Part shown: piece by piece, positions 4,651 to 21,279 of the stretch
How positions within the stretch are numbered: position 1 is the stretch's first letter
Layout: each line of letters opens with the position of its first letter
Virus record (IMG/VR): IMGVR_UViG_3300037493_000564
Span: 1-34,477 of that record
Reading direction: 5' to 3' (one strand)
Length of the DNA: 34,477 nucleotides
Origin: a virus
Notes under the pieces: model-generated
Seen by the model: only the letters and a program-made list of their open reading frames with translations
Databases searched by the model: none
Told to the model about the DNA's origin: nothing
Program-made: the position numbers and the translations under genes

Positions 4651-6233
4651 CCGCACTATCAATCCAACCCACATTTCCAATCTTCACGGATATTGATGGG
4701 CAGCCCCTTGAGGACGGCTACATCTTTATTGGTGTTGCAAATCTTGCACCAATAGGCAATCCCATCTCGGTCTACTGGGATGCGGCGCTGACAATCGCTG
4801 CGGCGCAGCCGATCCGCACTCGCGGCGGCTACCCGATAAACAGCGGCACGCCGGCTCGGCTGTACGTGAACAGCGACTACAGCATCCTGGTGCAGAACCG
4901 CAACGGCAGCGTGGTGTATTCGGCGCCTGCGGCGACGGAGCGGCTGTCTGATGTGATTATCGGCGGCATTGACTCCACCGACGTCTCATTCCTCCAATCC
5001 GGCTCCGGCGCAGTCACTCGCACGGTGCAGGCCAAGCTGCGTGAGTCTGTAAGCGTCAAGGACTTTGGTGCAACAGGGGATGGCGTAACAGATGACACAG
5101 CGGCCATTGTTCTTGCGTTAGCGGCATCCAAGAGTGTTTATTTCCCCGCCGGAACATATCTTTGCAGCTCCATCGTATTCAATGTTTCTGGTAAATCTGG
5201 TCGAAATATTCAAGGCGCATCCACTACTGAAACTATTTTCAAGGCAACCGTATCAGCCACAAATTTCTTTCAAATCACTGGAAACTACAACCAGTTCAAC
5301 ACGTTTGAGAATTTCAGCATTGATATGTCCTTGATGACAAATGCCGGAACATCACGAGGGTTGTATCTCAAGCAGACTTTTGGCAACAGTTTCCGAAACG
5401 TCAATGTAATAAATAGTGGCAATTTGATGCGCACGCTTTATTGCGATGTTGGAACCTACACTACAGTATTTGACAATTGCGATTTTGGAAGCACTACCGG
5501 AATTATTCAATTACAGGGTATATCATTGTCTGACGCTGTTACTACGGTAACACTTATTGGGTGTTCTTTTGGGCAATGTATTGCCGATCAAGTTGTGGCT
5601 GCCACATTTTTGCAGCCCGTTGTTCAAGGAGCTCTTAACAAGTTTGTCTTGTCTAATGTAAGTGGTTTGTCAATCGTTGGAGGTGACATTGAAGGAACCG
5701 GAACTTATCTTGTAATAGGTTCTGCGGTGGGTCATCTGTGCAGTTCTAACAATGAGCTTTCAGGATTTTCAGGCACCTATTCAACAGGCACTTTTGTCGA
5801 TGGCTACCTTATGGATATTTACGGAAGTATCTCGTTTAGTTTTAAGCCAAACAATGGGTCTGTTCACAAAGGTGTAATTACCGAACAAAGCAGCGCGGCA
5901 GCTCTATTACGCAAGATACTTCAAAACACGAATGCAATAGCGCAGCAAGTTGATATTCAGTTTGAAAATATTGTTGGTAGTTTGTACGCTGGCTTGAAGG
6001 CAGATGGTTCAACCGTCATCAATGGAATTGGATCTAAACCTATTATATTACAGCAATCTGGTGTTGATCGTTTTGGTATTGACACAGCAAGCCGATTAAT
6101 AATTGGCACTCTTACTCAGATAACCGTTGGAACCGCTGGTACTGCATCTGCATTGCCAGCGCTTCCAAGTGGCTTTGCCCGTATCGTGATTGGTGGCACT
6201 GATTACGTTATCCCTTATTACAAACAAATATGA
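4647..6233 (+). CDS. Tailspike / receptor-binding protein with P22-like head-binding domain and beta-helix
   Basis: 528 residues. AGGAGA precedes the ATG, which overlaps the previous stop (ATGA). Residues 1 to about 110 resemble the P22 tailspike head-binding domain (the IFTDIDGQPLEDGYIFIG and RTRGGYPIN segments). Residues about 136-155 carry the SVKDFGATGDGVTDD motif that opens pectate-lyase-type beta-helices. The distal part (nt about 5130-6200) is Ser/Thr/Asn/Gly-rich and visibly richer in AT than its neighbours, as expected for an exchangeable receptor-binding module. It probably trimerises, docks on the tail hub and binds or degrades a surface polysaccharide. Catalytic residues cannot be assigned. 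It is shorter than the P22 protein (about 667 residues). Confidence 0.85.
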   Translation: MTALSIQPTFPIFTDIDGQPLEDGYIFIGVANLAPIGNPISVYWDAALTIAAAQPIRTRGGYPINSGTPARLYVNSDYSILVQNRNGSVVYSAPAATERLSDVIIGGIDSTDVSFLQSGSGAVTRTVQAKLRESVSVKDFGATGDGVTDDTAAIVLALAASKSVYFPAGTYLCSSIVFNVSGKSGRNIQGASTTETIFKATVSATNFFQITGNYNQFNTFENFSIDMSLMTNAGTSRGLYLKQTFGNSFRNVNVINSGNLMRTLYCDVGTYTTVFDNCDFGSTTGIIQLQGISLSDAVTTVTLIGCSFGQCIADQVVAATFLQPVVQGALNKFVLSNVSGLSIVGGDIEGTGTYLVIGSAVGHLCSSNNELSGFSGTYSTGTFVDGYLMDIYGSISFSFKPNNGSVHKGVITEQSSAAALLRKILQNTNAIAQQVDIQFENIVGSLYAGLKADGSTVINGIGSKPIILQQSGVDRFGIDTASRLIIGTLTQITVGTAGTASALPALPSGFARIVIGGTDYVIPYYKQI

Positions 6234-6499
6234 CCAGCACCGCCTCCGGCCTGATCCTCTGGTACATGCAAGCCTGCAACTTCCAAGGCTGGACGAGCCT
6301 CTGGAACGTCATCTACCTCGCCCCCGGCTACGAGCAAGACCAGCGCCTGCTGCGCCACGAACGCCAACACCTGGCGCAAATGCAGCGCGACGGCAAGGTT
6401 GTCTACATGCTCAAGTACACATGGTGGCTGCTGCGCCACGGCTACCGCAACAACCCATACGAGATTGAAGCCCGACGAGCTGAAATATTAACTAACTGA
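6230..6499 (+). CDS. Small zincin-like protein with HExxH motif
   Basis: 89 residues, starting on the ATGA shared with the tailspike stop. His43-Glu-Arg-Gln-His47 is a canonical HExxH zinc motif. A later NNPYEIEAR segment (residues 74-82) offers a glutamate as third ligand, the spacing seen in gluzincin-like families. The segments around residues 10-30 and 57-68 are hydrophobic and aromatic. Its place between tailspike and holin genes suggests a role in lysis, envelope processing or virion assembly, but no substrate can be inferred. The fold assignment rests on the motif alone. Confidence 0.7.
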   Translation: MTSTASGLILWYMQACNFQGWTSLWNVIYLAPGYEQDQRLLRHERQHLAQMQRDGKVVYMLKYTWWLLRHGYRNNPYEIEARRAEILTN

Positions 6500-6510
6500 A
6501 TGGAGTACTC

Positions 6511-16596: not shown

Positions 16597-16776
16597 ATGA
16601 AGACGCAAGAAGCAATCAACTACTACGGCAGCCTTCGCAAGCTGGCCGAAGCCCTGGACGTTTGGCCGCAGGTGATCTATCAATGGGGCGACACTCCCCC
16701 GATGGGGCGACAGTACGAGCTTGAGGTTAAGACTGAGGGAGTGCTGAAGGCAGATCGGGAGCCAGTAAATGGCTGA
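16597..16776 (+). CDS. cro: Cro-like transcriptional regulator (P22 Cro family)
   Basis: 59 residues. AAGGTGG lies just upstream of the ATG. The sequence DAxxYYG-like opening (TQEAINYYGS), the helix-turn-helix LRKLAEALDVWPQVIYQWG and the RQYELEVKTEG ending match the small P22 Cro family. It would bind operators in the adjacent divergent promoter region and damp early transcription. No CI-type partner repressor is seen in the genome. The next gene starts inside its last codons. Confidence 0.8.
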   Translation: MKTQEAINYYGSLRKLAEALDVWPQVIYQWGDTPPMGRQYELEVKTEGVLKADREPVNG

Positions 16777-17623
16777 TCCATTCAAGATCGACAGCCAAAC
16801 ATGCATCAGCTTTAGTGGCGGCAGAACCAGTGCCTATATGCTGTGGCGGGTGCTCCAGTCAAACAGTGGATTGCCAGACGAGTGCATTGTGATGTTTGCC
16901 AACACCGGCAAGGAGGATGAGGCTACGCTGCAATTTGTGCGCGACTGTGGAGAGCATTGGGGCGTGCCGATCACATGGCTGGAGTGGCAGGACGCTGAAG
17001 AGCCACGCGACCGTGTGCGAGTAGTTGACATTGCTAGTGCGGCAAGAAATGGCGAGCCATTTGAGGCTTTGATCAGGAAGAAAAATTACCTGCCGAATCC
17101 AGTGACCAGGTTTTGCACAGTCGATCTGAAGATCAAGCCATTTGCCAACTATTGCAGGCACCACATAGGGTGGGATGACTGGGACAACATGCTCGGTATC
17201 CGAGCCGATGAGCCTAGGAGGGTGGCTAAGATCAGAGCAAACCCGTCAGACGGAATGAAGGGTATTCACCGACTTATGCCTCTTGCTGATGACAATGTGA
17301 CACGGCAGGATGTCGCACAGTTTTGGGCCAAACAATCATTTGATCTTGGATTACCAAACATCGGCGGCGTGACTTATCACGGCAACTGCGATCTATGTTT
17401 CCTCAAAGGCGCATCGCAGATTTTGTCGTTGATTGCAGAGAAGCCAGAGCGTGCAATTTGGTGGGCGAGCCAAGAAGGATCAATTACAAATCCTGGAATC
17501 ACGGGGGGGGGGTACTTCAGGAAAGACCGACCCAACTACTCTTCAATGCTTAAATTCAGCCAAGATCAACGCGACATGTTTGACCCTAACGAGGAAGCCA
17601 TTTCGTGCTTCTGTGGAGACTAA
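16769..17623 (+). CDS. PAPS-reductase family PP-loop enzyme
   Basis: 284 residues, overlapping cro by eight bases. The N-terminal SFSGGRTSAYML is the PP-loop nucleotide-binding signature of the PAPS reductase/ATP pyrophosphatase group. It is followed by MFANTGKEDEATLQFV and a conserved RFCTVDLKIKP. Cysteine pairs occur in GNCDLCFLK and in the terminal SCFCGD. Phage members are usually annotated PAPS reductase, but DndC-like sulfur transfer or nucleotide modification is equally possible. Its place between cro and the primase suggests an early DNA- or nucleotide-related job. A run of ten G residues near 17503-17512 lies in the reading frame. Confidence 0.78.
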   Translation: MADPFKIDSQTCISFSGGRTSAYMLWRVLQSNSGLPDECIVMFANTGKEDEATLQFVRDCGEHWGVPITWLEWQDAEEPRDRVRVVDIASAARNGEPFEALIRKKNYLPNPVTRFCTVDLKIKPFANYCRHHIGWDDWDNMLGIRADEPRRVAKIRANPSDGMKGIHRLMPLADDNVTRQDVAQFWAKQSFDLGLPNIGGVTYHGNCDLCFLKGASQILSLIAEKPERAIWWASQEGSITNPGITGGGYFRKDRPNYSSMLKFSQDQRDMFDPNEEAISCFCGD

Positions 17624-17625
17624 AA

Positions 17626-19677
17626 ATGGCTGACCTCTCCAACGTCCTCGGCGGTCCTTGGTCGCCACCACCAGAAAAAAGAGTTGCACCGCCTGAAGAG
17701 CAGCTCATCGATGCAATCAAAGCAGCAGGGCTTGAGCCACCCGATCACATCGAGATGGACGGCAAGATTCACCGATTCAAGTCAGGCACCAAGGGCACAC
17801 CAGGCATCGACAAACCAGGCTGGTATCTGGTGTTCGGTGATGGCATCCCAGCAGGTCGGTTTGGATGCTGGCGCATGGGCATGGAGGTGACTTGGCGTGC
17901 AGATGTAGGGCGCAAGCTCACTGACTTTGAGGAGATGGCCCACGCAAGGCGCATCAACGAATCCAAGGTCTTGCGCGAAGCTGCCCAAGAGCGCCAGCAT
18001 CAAGTGGCCAGCGAGACGGTCGAGAAAATCTGGCTCAGTGGTGTCGCAGCCCACCCCGACCACCCTTACCTGAAGCGCAAAGGCATCCAGACCCACGGCG
18101 TGCGCACCACAGGCGATGGGCGGCTGATGGTCCCCCTCTACGATCAAGACGGCACCCTGAGCACCCTTCAATACATCGATGAGGACGGTGGCAAGCTGTA
18201 CCACCCAGGCGGCAAGTCGGGCGGCAAGTTTTGGATGATAGGCTCACTAGATGAGCCTGGACCGCTATATGTGGCCGAGGGATTTGCCACCGCAGCCACC
18301 ATCTATGAAACCACCAGCCGACCCTGCGTTGTTGCTTACAGCGCCAGCAGTCTGGTGCCGGTCACAGCAAGCCTGCGCGAGATGTACGGCGCAACTCAGG
18401 ACATCGTTATCGTGGCAGACCATGACAAACACGGCGTGGGCCAGCGCTACGCAGATCAGGCCAGCGCAAAGTTTGGAGCCAGGGTGATCATCCCACCCAT
18501 CGAGGGCATGGACGCCAACGACTACGTGCAAGCAGGACACAATCTCTCAGCCCTTTTGATCCAGCAAACCGGCACAGCCGTGATGGACAAGCTGCAGGTT
18601 GTGTTTGGTGACCAGCTCGGCAGCGACTACGAGGCACCAGACGAGCTGGTCGAAGGCCTCATGACCATCGGCAGCTCAGTGGTGGTCTACGGCGACAGCA
18701 ACTCAGGCAAGACATTCTGGGCACTCTCAGTGGCCACGGCCATCGCCACCGGCTCGGACTGCTACGGACGCAAGACCGACCCCGGCCTGGTAGTGTATCT
18801 GGCCAGCGAAGCCCCGGCCAGCATCCGGTCTCGCATGCAGGCCATCAAGAAGTTCCACGGCTGCAGCCTGGAGAACTTGGCAATGGTGCCGGTGCCGATG
18901 AACTTCTATTCAGGTGCCCAAGACGCACACGACGTGATCGAGATGGTCAGGGCCATCGAGAAGATCAAGGGCAAGCCGGTGCGCCTGATCATCGGCGACA
19001 CGCTGGCCAGGATGAGCGCAGGAGCCAACGAAAACAGCGGCGAGGACATGGGTCCAGTCATGGCCAGATTCGACCAGGTGGCCACCGCCACGGGCGCGGC
19101 CATGATGATCATCCACCACAACGGCAAAGACGCTGCCCGAGGCGCTCGGGGATGGTCAGGAATCCGTGCCCACATCGACACCGAGATCGAGGTCACAGAA
19201 AAAGAAGGCACCCGGTCGGTCTCCGTCACCAAGCAGCGAGAACTGCCCAGCAAAGGTGAGACGATTTACTTTCGGCTGGAGGTCGTCGAGATGGGCACAT
19301 CCAAGTTTGGCGGCGCAGCCACCACCTGCGTGGCCATCCCAGATGATGATGCAAATGCCACGAAACCCCACAAAAAACCTACAAAGCACGACGAGAACGT
19401 GCGCACAGTCGAGCGTGCCTGGTGGGCATCAGGTGCCGAAGAGCGTGAGGGTTTCCCCTACGTCAGCAGGTCGGCACTGCGTGAGCTGCTGGTCAAAGAT
19501 GGCGCGACCGAGCGCACCGCCAAGAACAAAACCGAGGCATCCAGACCGGATGGAATCATCTCGCAAATGCTCAACTCGGGCGCTTTGCAATCGACTGAAC
19601 ACGGCTGGATTTTCATCAACAAGGCGCAGGCAAGTGCCATGCTGATGCAAAAAAATGGGGGACAAAATCGCCCCTAA
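17626..19677 (+). CDS. Primase-helicase: TOPRIM domain plus RepA-like AAA ATPase
   Basis: 683 residues, with GGAG seven bases before the ATG. The N-terminal 200 residues contain a primase-associated domain. TOPRIM motifs are YVAEGFATA (about 214-222) and VIVADHDKHG (Asp265, Asp267). The ATPase has GDSNSGKTF (Lys362), a Walker B-like LIIGDTLARM and a conserved MMIIHHNGKDAARGARG segment of the RepA/RadA-like (AAA_25) hexameric helicases. The C-terminus is probably a winged-helix or linker region. It would open and prime the origin that lies directly downstream. No polymerase gene is present, so the host enzyme is likely recruited. Confidence 0.88.
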   Translation: MADLSNVLGGPWSPPPEKRVAPPEEQLIDAIKAAGLEPPDHIEMDGKIHRFKSGTKGTPGIDKPGWYLVFGDGIPAGRFGCWRMGMEVTWRADVGRKLTDFEEMAHARRINESKVLREAAQERQHQVASETVEKIWLSGVAAHPDHPYLKRKGIQTHGVRTTGDGRLMVPLYDQDGTLSTLQYIDEDGGKLYHPGGKSGGKFWMIGSLDEPGPLYVAEGFATAATIYETTSRPCVVAYSASSLVPVTASLREMYGATQDIVIVADHDKHGVGQRYADQASAKFGARVIIPPIEGMDANDYVQAGHNLSALLIQQTGTAVMDKLQVVFGDQLGSDYEAPDELVEGLMTIGSSVVVYGDSNSGKTFWALSVATAIATGSDCYGRKTDPGLVVYLASEAPASIRSRMQAIKKFHGCSLENLAMVPVPMNFYSGAQDAHDVIEMVRAIEKIKGKPVRLIIGDTLARMSAGANENSGEDMGPVMARFDQVATATGAAMMIIHHNGKDAARGARGWSGIRAHIDTEIEVTEKEGTRSVSVTKQRELPSKGETIYFRLEVVEMGTSKFGGAATTCVAIPDDDANATKPHKKPTKHDENVRTVERAWWASGAEEREGFPYVSRSALRELLVKDGATERTAKNKTEASRPDGIISQMLNSGALQSTEHGWIFINKAQASAMLMQKNGGQNRP

Positions 19678-19779
19678 ACGCCCCTGAGTGCCCCTAGGGG
19701 TTTTTAGGGGTTAGGGGCAAAAGCCCGTTAAATCGCCCCTCCCCGCCCCTAAAACGTATACGTTAGGGGCGGTAGGGGC
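19670..19779. repeat. GCCCCT iteron array, candidate replication origin
   Basis: GCCCCT starts at 19670, 19680, 19690, 19735 and 19745. Inverted AGGGGC/AGGGGT copies start at 19696, 19706, 19713, 19765 and 19774. Most intervals are 9-10 bases, about one helical turn. A 12-base palindrome AACGTATACGTT (19753-19764) lies between opposing copies. The first copy overlaps the end of the primase-helicase gene. This iteron pattern beside a replication gene and a DnaA box is typical of an origin. Binding sites for a regulator are the alternative. Confidence 0.7.
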
Positions 19780-19807
19780 AACGGGATGCGGAAAATCAGG
19801 GACAAAG

Positions 19808-19816
19808 TTATCCACA
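19808..19816 (+). other. Perfect DnaA box
   Basis: TTATCCACA matches the consensus DnaA-binding site exactly. It lies 29 bases after the iteron array and 22 bases before the next gene, supporting a host-DnaA-assisted origin in this 160-base non-coding stretch. Confidence 0.7.
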
Positions 19817-19837
19817 GAAAAGTGAGCAAGTACTAAC

Positions 19838-20020
19838 ATGAAGCAACACCGAGAGACCCCAGACTTCAAAACCTGGCAGCTCGACACCCTTGCCAAGTTT
19901 GCGACCGAGGTCTACCTCCGGCTGCAGGACGAGCAGGCCGCAAACGAGCAGCTCAGGCTTGATCTCAAAGATGCCATGAAACTGGCGCGAATCCAAAACA
20001 TGAAGGAAAATGCAGCATGA
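19838..20020 (+). CDS. Small helical hypothetical protein
   Basis: 60 residues, almost entirely helical and charged (LRLQDEQAANEQLRLDLKDAMKLARI), with heptad character that suggests a coiled-coil dimer. It is encoded between the origin region and the methyltransferase, and its stop overlaps the next start (ATGA). No good Shine-Dalgarno is seen. Function unknown. Confidence 0.55.
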   Translation: MKQHRETPDFKTWQLDTLAKFATEVYLRLQDEQAANEQLRLDLKDAMKLARIQNMKENAA

Positions 20021-21279
20021 CCACAAAAACCCACGATTTAAAAGCATCTATCGAGTACATCTCGGTCGACAAGCTCGTTCCCTACGCACGCAACAGCAGA
20101 ACCCACAGCGACGCACAAGTGGCCCAGATCGCTGCATCTATCAAGGAATTCGGCTTCACCAACCCGGTGCTGATTGATGGGGGTGGGGGGATCATTGCAG
20201 GACACGGCCGAGTCATGGCGGCACGCAGCATGAAAATTGATACAGTCCCGTGCATCCGACTTGGCCACCTGACCGATGCACAGAAAAAGGCCTACGTGAT
20301 TGCCGACAACAAGCTGGCGCTGAATGCTGGGTGGGATAACGAGTTGCTGGCCATCGAGCTGGGCGAGCTGGGTGATCTCGGTTTTGATCTTGAGCTGACA
20401 GGCTTCACCGATGATGAGATCGCAGCACTCATGCCGGTGCAAGGCACTGACGGACTGACCGACCCGGACGACGCGCCACTCGTTCAGGAAACAGCAACCA
20501 CGGTGCCAGGCGACATCTGGGTGATGGGAAAACACCGGCTGCTCTGCGGAGACTCGACCAGCATCGATGACCTGACCAAACTCACTGGCGGTCAGTTGGT
20601 GGACATCTGGCTGACAGATCCACCCTACAACGTGGCGTACGAAGGCGGCACAAAGGAGAAGCTGACCATCAAGAACGACGAGATGGGCGACGATCAGTTT
20701 CGACAGTTCTTGCGCGACTCTTACACCGCAGCAGATACGGTCATGAAGCCGGGCGCTGTGTTCTACATTTGGCACGCAGATTTAGAGGGCTACAACTTCC
20801 GAGGCGCTGCTCAAGATGCGGGCTGGAAAGTTCGCCAGTGTTTGATCTGGCAAAAGTCATCGCTCGTCATGGGTTGGCAAGATTATCATGCGAAGCACGA
20901 ACCATGCCTTTACGGGTGGAAGGATGGCGCCGCTCATCTTTGGGCAGCCGACCGAAAGCAGACCACCATCCTCGAGTTCGACAAGCCAACCCGCAACGGT
21001 GAGCACCCAACTATGAAGCCGGTGGCGTTGTTTGAGTACCAGCTCCTGAACAACACAAAGGGAGGCGACGTGGTGCTCGACAGTTTTGGCGGCAGCGGCA
21101 CCACCTTAATCACAGCCGAGAAGAACGGTCGAGTCGCAATGCTGATGGAACTTGATCCACGTTATTGCGACGTCATCGTGAAACGCTGGCAGCAATTCAC
21201 AGGCAAAATAGCAATTCACGCAGAAACTGGACAACCTTTCGCGGAGGTTAAAAATGGCAACCAAGAAACAAAAACTTGA
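20017..21279 (+). CDS. ParB-like nuclease domain fused to DNA N6/N4 methyltransferase
   Basis: 420 residues. Residues 1 to about 100 are a ParB/Srx-like domain (VPYARNSRTHS, then FTNPVLIDGGGGIIAGHGRVMAA with the GHGR motif). The C-terminal half is a beta-class amino-methyltransferase with motif IV DPPY (in IWLTDPPYNVAYEG) and AdoMet motif I DSFGGSGTT near the end. Such fusions are common in phages and methylate adenine or cytosine amino groups in phage DNA, protecting it or marking it for packaging. It lies between origin and terminase and overlaps the small terminase gene by 26 bases. Confidence 0.88.
   Translation: MTTKTHDLKASIEYISVDKLVPYARNSRTHSDAQVAQIAASIKEFGFTNPVLIDGGGGIIAGHGRVMAARSMKIDTVPCIRLGHLTDAQKKAYVIADNKLALNAGWDNELLAIELGELGDLGFDLELTGFTDDEIAALMPVQGTDGLTDPDDAPLVQETATTVPGDIWVMGKHRLLCGDSTSIDDLTKLTGGQLVDIWLTDPPYNVAYEGGTKEKLTIKNDEMGDDQFRQFLRDSYTAADTVMKPGAVFYIWHADLEGYNFRGAAQDAGWKVRQCLIWQKSSLVMGWQDYHAKHEPCLYGWKDGAAHLWAADRKQTTILEFDKPTRNGEHPTMKPVALFEYQLLNNTKGGDVVLDSFGGSGTTLITAEKNGRVAMLMELDPRYCDVIVKRWQQFTGKIAIHAETGQPFAEVKNGNQETKT

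Follow-up and report, generated by a model that had tools for sequence, protein, structure and literature searches.

The cluster of short repeats that directly follows the primase-helicase gene in the analysed window (the whole viral contig of 34,477 nucleotides) is very probably a replication origin that combines iterons with hairpins and would be bound by the phage's own primase-helicase. An earlier note had read the site as an iteron/DnaA origin, and this reading is well supported by the clusters found at the same place in relatives, by the concentration of DnaA boxes beside them and by a repeat word that tracks the C-terminal winged helix of the protein. The co-variation of that winged helix and the covarying hairpin go beyond the earlier note.

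The primase-helicase gene and its surroundings

The relevant gene encodes a protein with Pfam matches to PF13362 (Toprim_3) and PF13481 (AAA_25), for which AlphaFold2 gave a model with a mean pLDDT of 83. Its translation contains the Toprim-type motif EG(Y/F)ATA (as AEGFATAATI), and its helicase part is RecA-like (AAA_25), with no SF3 helicase domain found in the protein. Translation likely starts at ATG 17626, directly after the end of the upstream gene at 17623, and not at GTG 17605.

17626..19677, + strand: primase-helicase coding sequence, likely initiator (Toprim_3, RecA-like AAA_25 and predicted C-terminal winged helix)
19384..19659, + strand: predicted C-terminal winged-helix domain, residues ~587-678 (from the AlphaFold2 C-terminal model)

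The upstream gene (16769-17623) is PAPS-reductase-like, whereas cultured relatives carry a small Cro-like regulator in this position; such a regulator was considered as the iteron binder and set aside, as its place in the window is taken by the PAPS-reductase-like gene. Products of the ORFs scanned comprise a Sak4-like annealing protein, a Cas4-type exonuclease, a ssDNA-binding-like protein and a second helicase, along with methyltransferases, terminase, portal and head proteins. The earlier note's description of a phage lacking its own polymerase holds for these ORFs, none of which encodes a DNA polymerase, and extends no further than this virus contig, which may be a fragment. Elsewhere in the window, GC content falls to ~0.44-0.46 at 5000-6500, near the end of a tail-spike-like gene, compared with ~0.6 in the remainder.

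Ten short repeats from the end of the gene onwards

Ten repeats (eight exact GCCCCT/AGGGGC copies and two AGGGGT copies) lie within the 110 bp from 19670 to 19779. All but the first fall in the non-coding stretch that separates the stop of the primase-helicase gene (19677) from the following ORF (19838).

19670, 19680, 19690, 19735 and 19745, + strand: exact GCCCCT
19713, 19765 and 19774: exact AGGGGC
19696 and 19706: AGGGGT
19753-19764: apical palindrome AACGTATACGTT with a TATA loop, framed by repeats
19808-19816, + strand: DnaA box TTATCCACA, with no second exact copy in the window (0.11 expected)

Number, position and two orientations of the repeats are as the earlier note had described them, as is their arrangement around AACGTATACGTT with TTATCCACA following. 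Copies on the same strand lie 10/10 and 10 bases apart on one side and 9 on the other, in line with the 9-10 bases noted before. The proposed overlap of the first copies with the gene's last codons applies to the very first one (19670-19675) and not to later copies. When the entire window was dinucleotide-shuffled 30 times, the densest 6-mer of any kind reached only 3-4 copies per 110 bp, compared with the 8 non-overlapping copies observed. Short, regularly spaced repeats beyond chance and an adjacent DnaA box, both features of iteron-type origins, are thus present, although the box is not universal in relatives.

GC skew does not discriminate here, because it follows gene orientation: in the window it tracks the direction of the genes and is uninformative on the origin. 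In three cultured relatives, the cumulative GC-skew minimum falls at a distance of ~1-3 kb from the element, counted circularly for one of them; two of these minima are close to points where gene direction switches, and the skew is therefore not decisive. A BLASTN search of the 186 bp element against phages and plasmids gave no meaningful match, because the repeat word diverges quickly. TIGR arrays, which have been reported in Salicola phage CGphi29 (PMC12045711), were also considered and rejected, since the element is unlike their 8-12 nt edge/loop repeats alternating with 9-nt spacers beside a Tas gene.

Repeat clusters and DnaA boxes in relatives

We compared ~150 relatives and assigned repeat words for 155 loci. 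In nearly all of the 80 viral contigs whose primase-helicase is 67-89% identical to ours, the gene is followed by an element of the GCCCCT type or of a closely similar one such as CCCCCT. More distant relatives, which comprise viral contigs, MAGs of several phyla and cultured phages, have a cluster in the same place with another word. Overall, a clade-specific repeated 6-mer is found within 330 nt after the gene in relatives ~37-90% identical, mostly at a spacing of 10 or 9; the words include AGGGGC, GGGGGC, GGGTCA, GGGACA, GGTACA, GGTTCA, GGTAAC, CGGAAC, CGGTAT, CGGACC, CGTAAC and GCATCA, among others. In the cultured Alteromonas phage PB15, Salicola phage CGphi29 and Idiomarinaceae phage 1N2-2, no repeated 6-mer anywhere in the genome is clustered more densely than the one that lies exactly at the post-primase site. 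Four apparent exceptions keep the cluster further downstream, behind an insertion of 239-1000 nt (~240 nt in L079 and L080, ~300 nt in L188 and ~1000 nt in L200), and two remote relatives, L087 and L099, have no clear repeat cluster after the gene. With the exception of these two, the comparison in relatives that the earlier note had called for shows that the repeats after the primase are kept. The gene downstream varies between relatives that have the same element.

The GGGACA word also turns up in MAG contigs (L090, L091, L093 and L095) whose bins belong to Alphaproteobacteria, Synergistales, Armatimonadota and Clostridiales, which reflects either a wide host range, repeated origin of the word or misbinned phage contigs.

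Exact DnaA boxes occur at 2.65 per kb within 400 nt downstream of the gene and at 0.049 per kb elsewhere in the same loci, a ~55-fold difference, and 150 of 161 copies lie on the + strand; as the loci are related, these counts are not independent events. Every CGGAAC and GGTAAC locus counted has at least one box (mean >2), as do 39 of the 64 AGGGGC loci, and none was found in the GGGACA, GGTACA and GGTTCA groups. Since the box is missing from some groups, DnaA may be a helper that is dispensable for some members.

The C-terminal winged helix probably reads the repeat word

The AlphaFold2 model of the C-terminal region (mean pLDDT 82.8) has the order helix-helix-helix-wing. Its structural matches are mostly winged-helix proteins (Z ~7) and support this fold class for the model and no particular family; the origin-binding domain of P4 alpha is missing from the match list, an absence that carries no weight, and the domain's sequence gave no meaningful match against the PDB. 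In a blind scan, a 15-residue segment was slid over the protein and pairs of loci with the same word were compared with pairs of different words. The best separation fell at residues 622-645, within the predicted winged helix.

19489..19563, + strand: putative specificity segment, residues ~622-646 (from the blind scan and natural switches such as V634Q)

Among pairs with 80-90% core identity (core being residues 1-560), segment 626-650 is 0.81 identical in same-word pairs and 0.34 in different-word pairs, whereas the primase and helicase parts hardly differ between the two kinds of pair. A dereplicated set of 79 proteins gave 0.78 versus 0.38, a contrast matched in 0 of 2000 permutations; because the permutation ignores relatedness, the contrast within the protein is the stronger argument. 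By nearest neighbour, the segment assigned the repeat word correctly for 141 of 143 loci and the core for 115 of 143. With 13 words, the most parsimonious history has 34 changes of word if the core tree is used and 17 if the tree of the winged helix is used. From these comparisons we infer that the winged helix of the primase-helicase reads the repeat word.

Residue 634 is glutamine in all 20 GGTAAC loci and in the CGTAAC locus L089, valine in 19 of 20 CGGAAC loci, and asparagine in every AGGGGC, GGGGGC and GGGTCA locus. The GGGACA word is paired with differing helices, and there is therefore no simple one-to-one code.

The word and the domain also change together between close relatives. The proteins of L191 (GGTAAC) and L209 (GGGGGC) are identical throughout residues 1-560; nucleotide identity between the two loci is 100% up to -300 from the stop, low from about -250 to +250 and 99-100% thereafter. 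The swapped unit is thus a ~500 bp cassette of winged helix and candidate origin, the sole difference between these near-identical phages, and L174 and L206 show a like pattern on a background of 92-98% identity. Simple assembly chimeras are unlikely, because two breakpoints flank the winged helix and the origin in several pairs. At a finer scale, L216 (CGGAAC) and L220 (GGTAAC) differ by only three residues in 601-683, namely V634Q, A640S and T641P. As the winged helix and the repeats are adjacent, linkage alone gives part of the correlation; point-change switches such as that between L216 and L220, and the fact that the large groups show no mixed combinations, go beyond it. Word changes in step with the winged-helix domain, and the pair would therefore behave as a swappable lock and key.

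The repeats form the arms of two predicted hairpins

The repeats are arranged as two potential hairpins bordered by conserved motifs, a layout that the earlier note had missed.

19670..19718, + strand: hairpin A, GCCCCT (19670, 19680, 19690) against AGGGGT, AGGGGT and AGGGGC (19696, 19706, 19713), the first GCCCCT copy overlapping the stop codon
19714..19723, + strand: 5' flanking motif GGGGCAAAAG, near-invariant in alignment A3
19724..19785, + strand: hairpin B, with CCCGTT/AACGGG as its outer stem, then two GCCCCT copies (19735, 19745), the tip and two AGGGGC copies (19765, 19774)
19785..19791, + strand: 3' flanking motif GATGCGG, near-invariant in alignment A3

The 5' flanking motif is kept in most groups regardless of the word, and a GG(G/C)GCAAA-type sequence is present in 122 of 152 loci. 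Predicted folding of the 181-nt stretch is strong, with z -5.8 as RNA (+ strand) and z -4.3 as DNA. Across 26 distinct GCCCCT-type sequences, 11 of the 24 pairs of hairpin B changed on both sides, with a covariation score of 0.231 compared with 0.063 for shuffled and at most 0.035 for slid alignments; the covarying pairs include the outer stem and the tip, both of which lie outside the iterons. A covariance model built on the GCCCCT-type sequences recovers the full-length element from groups that use a different word (GGGGGC, GGGTCA, CGGACC, CGGAAC, GGGACA and GCATCA; E ~3e-10 to 0.02), lying on the + strand where it would be expected. Hairpin B spans 62 nt in the window and up to ~85 nt in relatives. 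Its tip is usually CC-TWTA-GG, often CC-TATA-GG or CC-TTTA-GG; since TTTA is not self-complementary and TAAA occurs once, the fold appears to be strand-specific. Counts of G-T versus A-C in the stem (6 versus 4 outside one unpaired column) do not tell the folding strand or molecule apart.

Five relatives (L032, L033, L036, L037 and L060) have a longer hairpin in place of hairpin B, with a T-run after it. In several of them TTGCCA-N-TATGAT, which resembles a promoter, lies near CCTATAGG repeats. These features may be a terminator and a promoter beside the origin.

The strong predicted + strand RNA folding, the stem covariation, the position inside the rightward operon and the T-run of the L032-type relatives would all fit a structured RNA, or a terminator or leader between operon segments, whose hairpins act in the transcript and whose repeats are merely arms. 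We consider this very unlikely: no + strand terminator match was found in the window, and an Rfam search returned no family above threshold (best 16.8 bits, with a gathering score of 76). Moreover, an RNA role would neither tie the word to a DNA-reading winged helix nor concentrate DnaA boxes at the site, and the element is kept behind inserted DNA.

A candidate origin and its proposed mode of action

Co-variation of word and winged helix, as well as cassette exchange, would equally be predicted if the repeats served the primase-helicase as a site for copy-number control, incompatibility or autoregulation, with replication starting elsewhere. This is less likely still, given that the sites lie downstream of the gene and outside its promoter, that DnaA boxes and a hairpin share the spot, and that the three cultured phages have no denser short-word cluster elsewhere in their genomes. 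A packaging (cos/pac) or partition site, suggested by a gene for a ParB_N domain fused to an N6/N4 DNA methyltransferase (20017-21279) just after the candidate origin and by terminase genes from 21254, is most improbable, as the word co-varies with the primase-helicase, swap pairs keep the replication-gene core while winged helix and site change, and the downstream gene differs among relatives with the same element.

If the site is an origin, copies of the primase-helicase would bind the GCCCCT iterons through their own C-terminal winged helix, as the co-variation suggests, and host DnaA at TTATCCACA, where the box is present, would help to open the DNA. The RecA-like helicase would then load, and the strand with the TWTA-tipped hairpin B might, more speculatively, be exposed or extruded and offer the Toprim primase a structured start place. 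The host polymerase would carry out the remaining synthesis. The reading domain of the initiator and the origin, side by side, would move together from phage to phage by exchange of a single cassette of ~500 bp.

A broader proposal, which we put forward tentatively and hold to be possible, is that this is a widespread module in which the winged helix and the hairpin-forming iteron origin constitute one exchangeable, often-switching specificity cassette, perhaps escaping incompatibility, satellites or origin-targeting nucleases, and in which the TWTA-tipped hairpin, specific to one strand, provides this protein with an inbuilt site for priming.

Comparison with known replication systems

The phage module fits none of the systems that we compared exactly. 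Similar to the protein described here, the alpha protein of satellite phage P4 unites a Toprim-type primase, a helicase and a C-terminal winged helix in one chain (PMC4234260). The P4 alpha helicase belongs to the SF3 class, whereas the present one is RecA-like (AAA_25). The repeat word and layout also differ, and here the site lies directly after the gene, forms a covarying hairpin and is accompanied by DnaA boxes in many relatives. The winged helix of P4 alpha binds short origin repeats (as summarised in PMC4234260).

The Sulfolobus plasmid pRN1, which encodes ORF904, has a ~100 bp stem-loop just 3' of its replication gene that is essential for replication; its type of replication protein has a C-terminal winged helix, and in the modules of pRN1 and Bordetella phage BIP-1 the fold of the stem-loop is conserved and its sequence poorly so (PMC4234260). 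The authors of that work point to phages with similar arrangements (PMC4234260). A conserved stem-loop of this kind after the replication gene, with the fold kept over the sequence, is likewise present in our element. However, the archaeo-eukaryotic primase and SF3 helicase of pRN1 are absent from our protein, which has Toprim_3 and AAA_25 instead, and the pRN1 origin lacks iterons, whereas here the iterons are the hairpin arms.

In plasmid RSF1010, the tasks that a single fused protein would perform here are split over three proteins, RepA (a RecA-like helicase), RepB' and RepC. Its oriV with ssiA/ssiB comprises initiator iterons, the helicase RepA and primase-recognised stem-loops (PMC4234260).

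As in phage lambda, the iterons lie in or next to the gene of the initiator. Those of lambda are 19 bp long and inside the O gene, and O is neither a primase nor a helicase. The iterons that lambda O recognises are found within or beside the O gene, and this pairing sets specificity (PMC4488673).

In the PLE satellites of Vibrio cholerae, the origin and the initiator's DNA-binding domain co-vary and have been swapped together as a module; experiments showed cognate pairing, and the swap escapes an origin-targeting nuclease (PMC8263062). Sequence comparison suggests that the initiator's DNA-binding domain and the origin form such an exchangeable module here as well, whereas PLE differ in their RepA_N domain, their ~30 bp semi-palindromic iterons and their lack of a primase-helicase fusion. 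We found no published description of an origin for this primase-helicase family in open-licence full texts.

Implications

Our analysis provides a candidate origin and initiator for a large group of phages, most of which are uncultured. It raises the question of what drives the swapping; swaps of this kind in PLE satellites evade a nuclease that targets the origin (PMC8263062). The relatives also constitute a natural data set on protein-DNA specificity, with at least 12 words, more than 30 changes of word inferred from the core tree, full cassette swaps between phages of identical core, and a three-residue switch (V634Q, A640S, T641P) that accompanies CGGAAC to GGTAAC. These natural variants would allow a direct test of the rule by which an origin-binding winged helix recognises its DNA.
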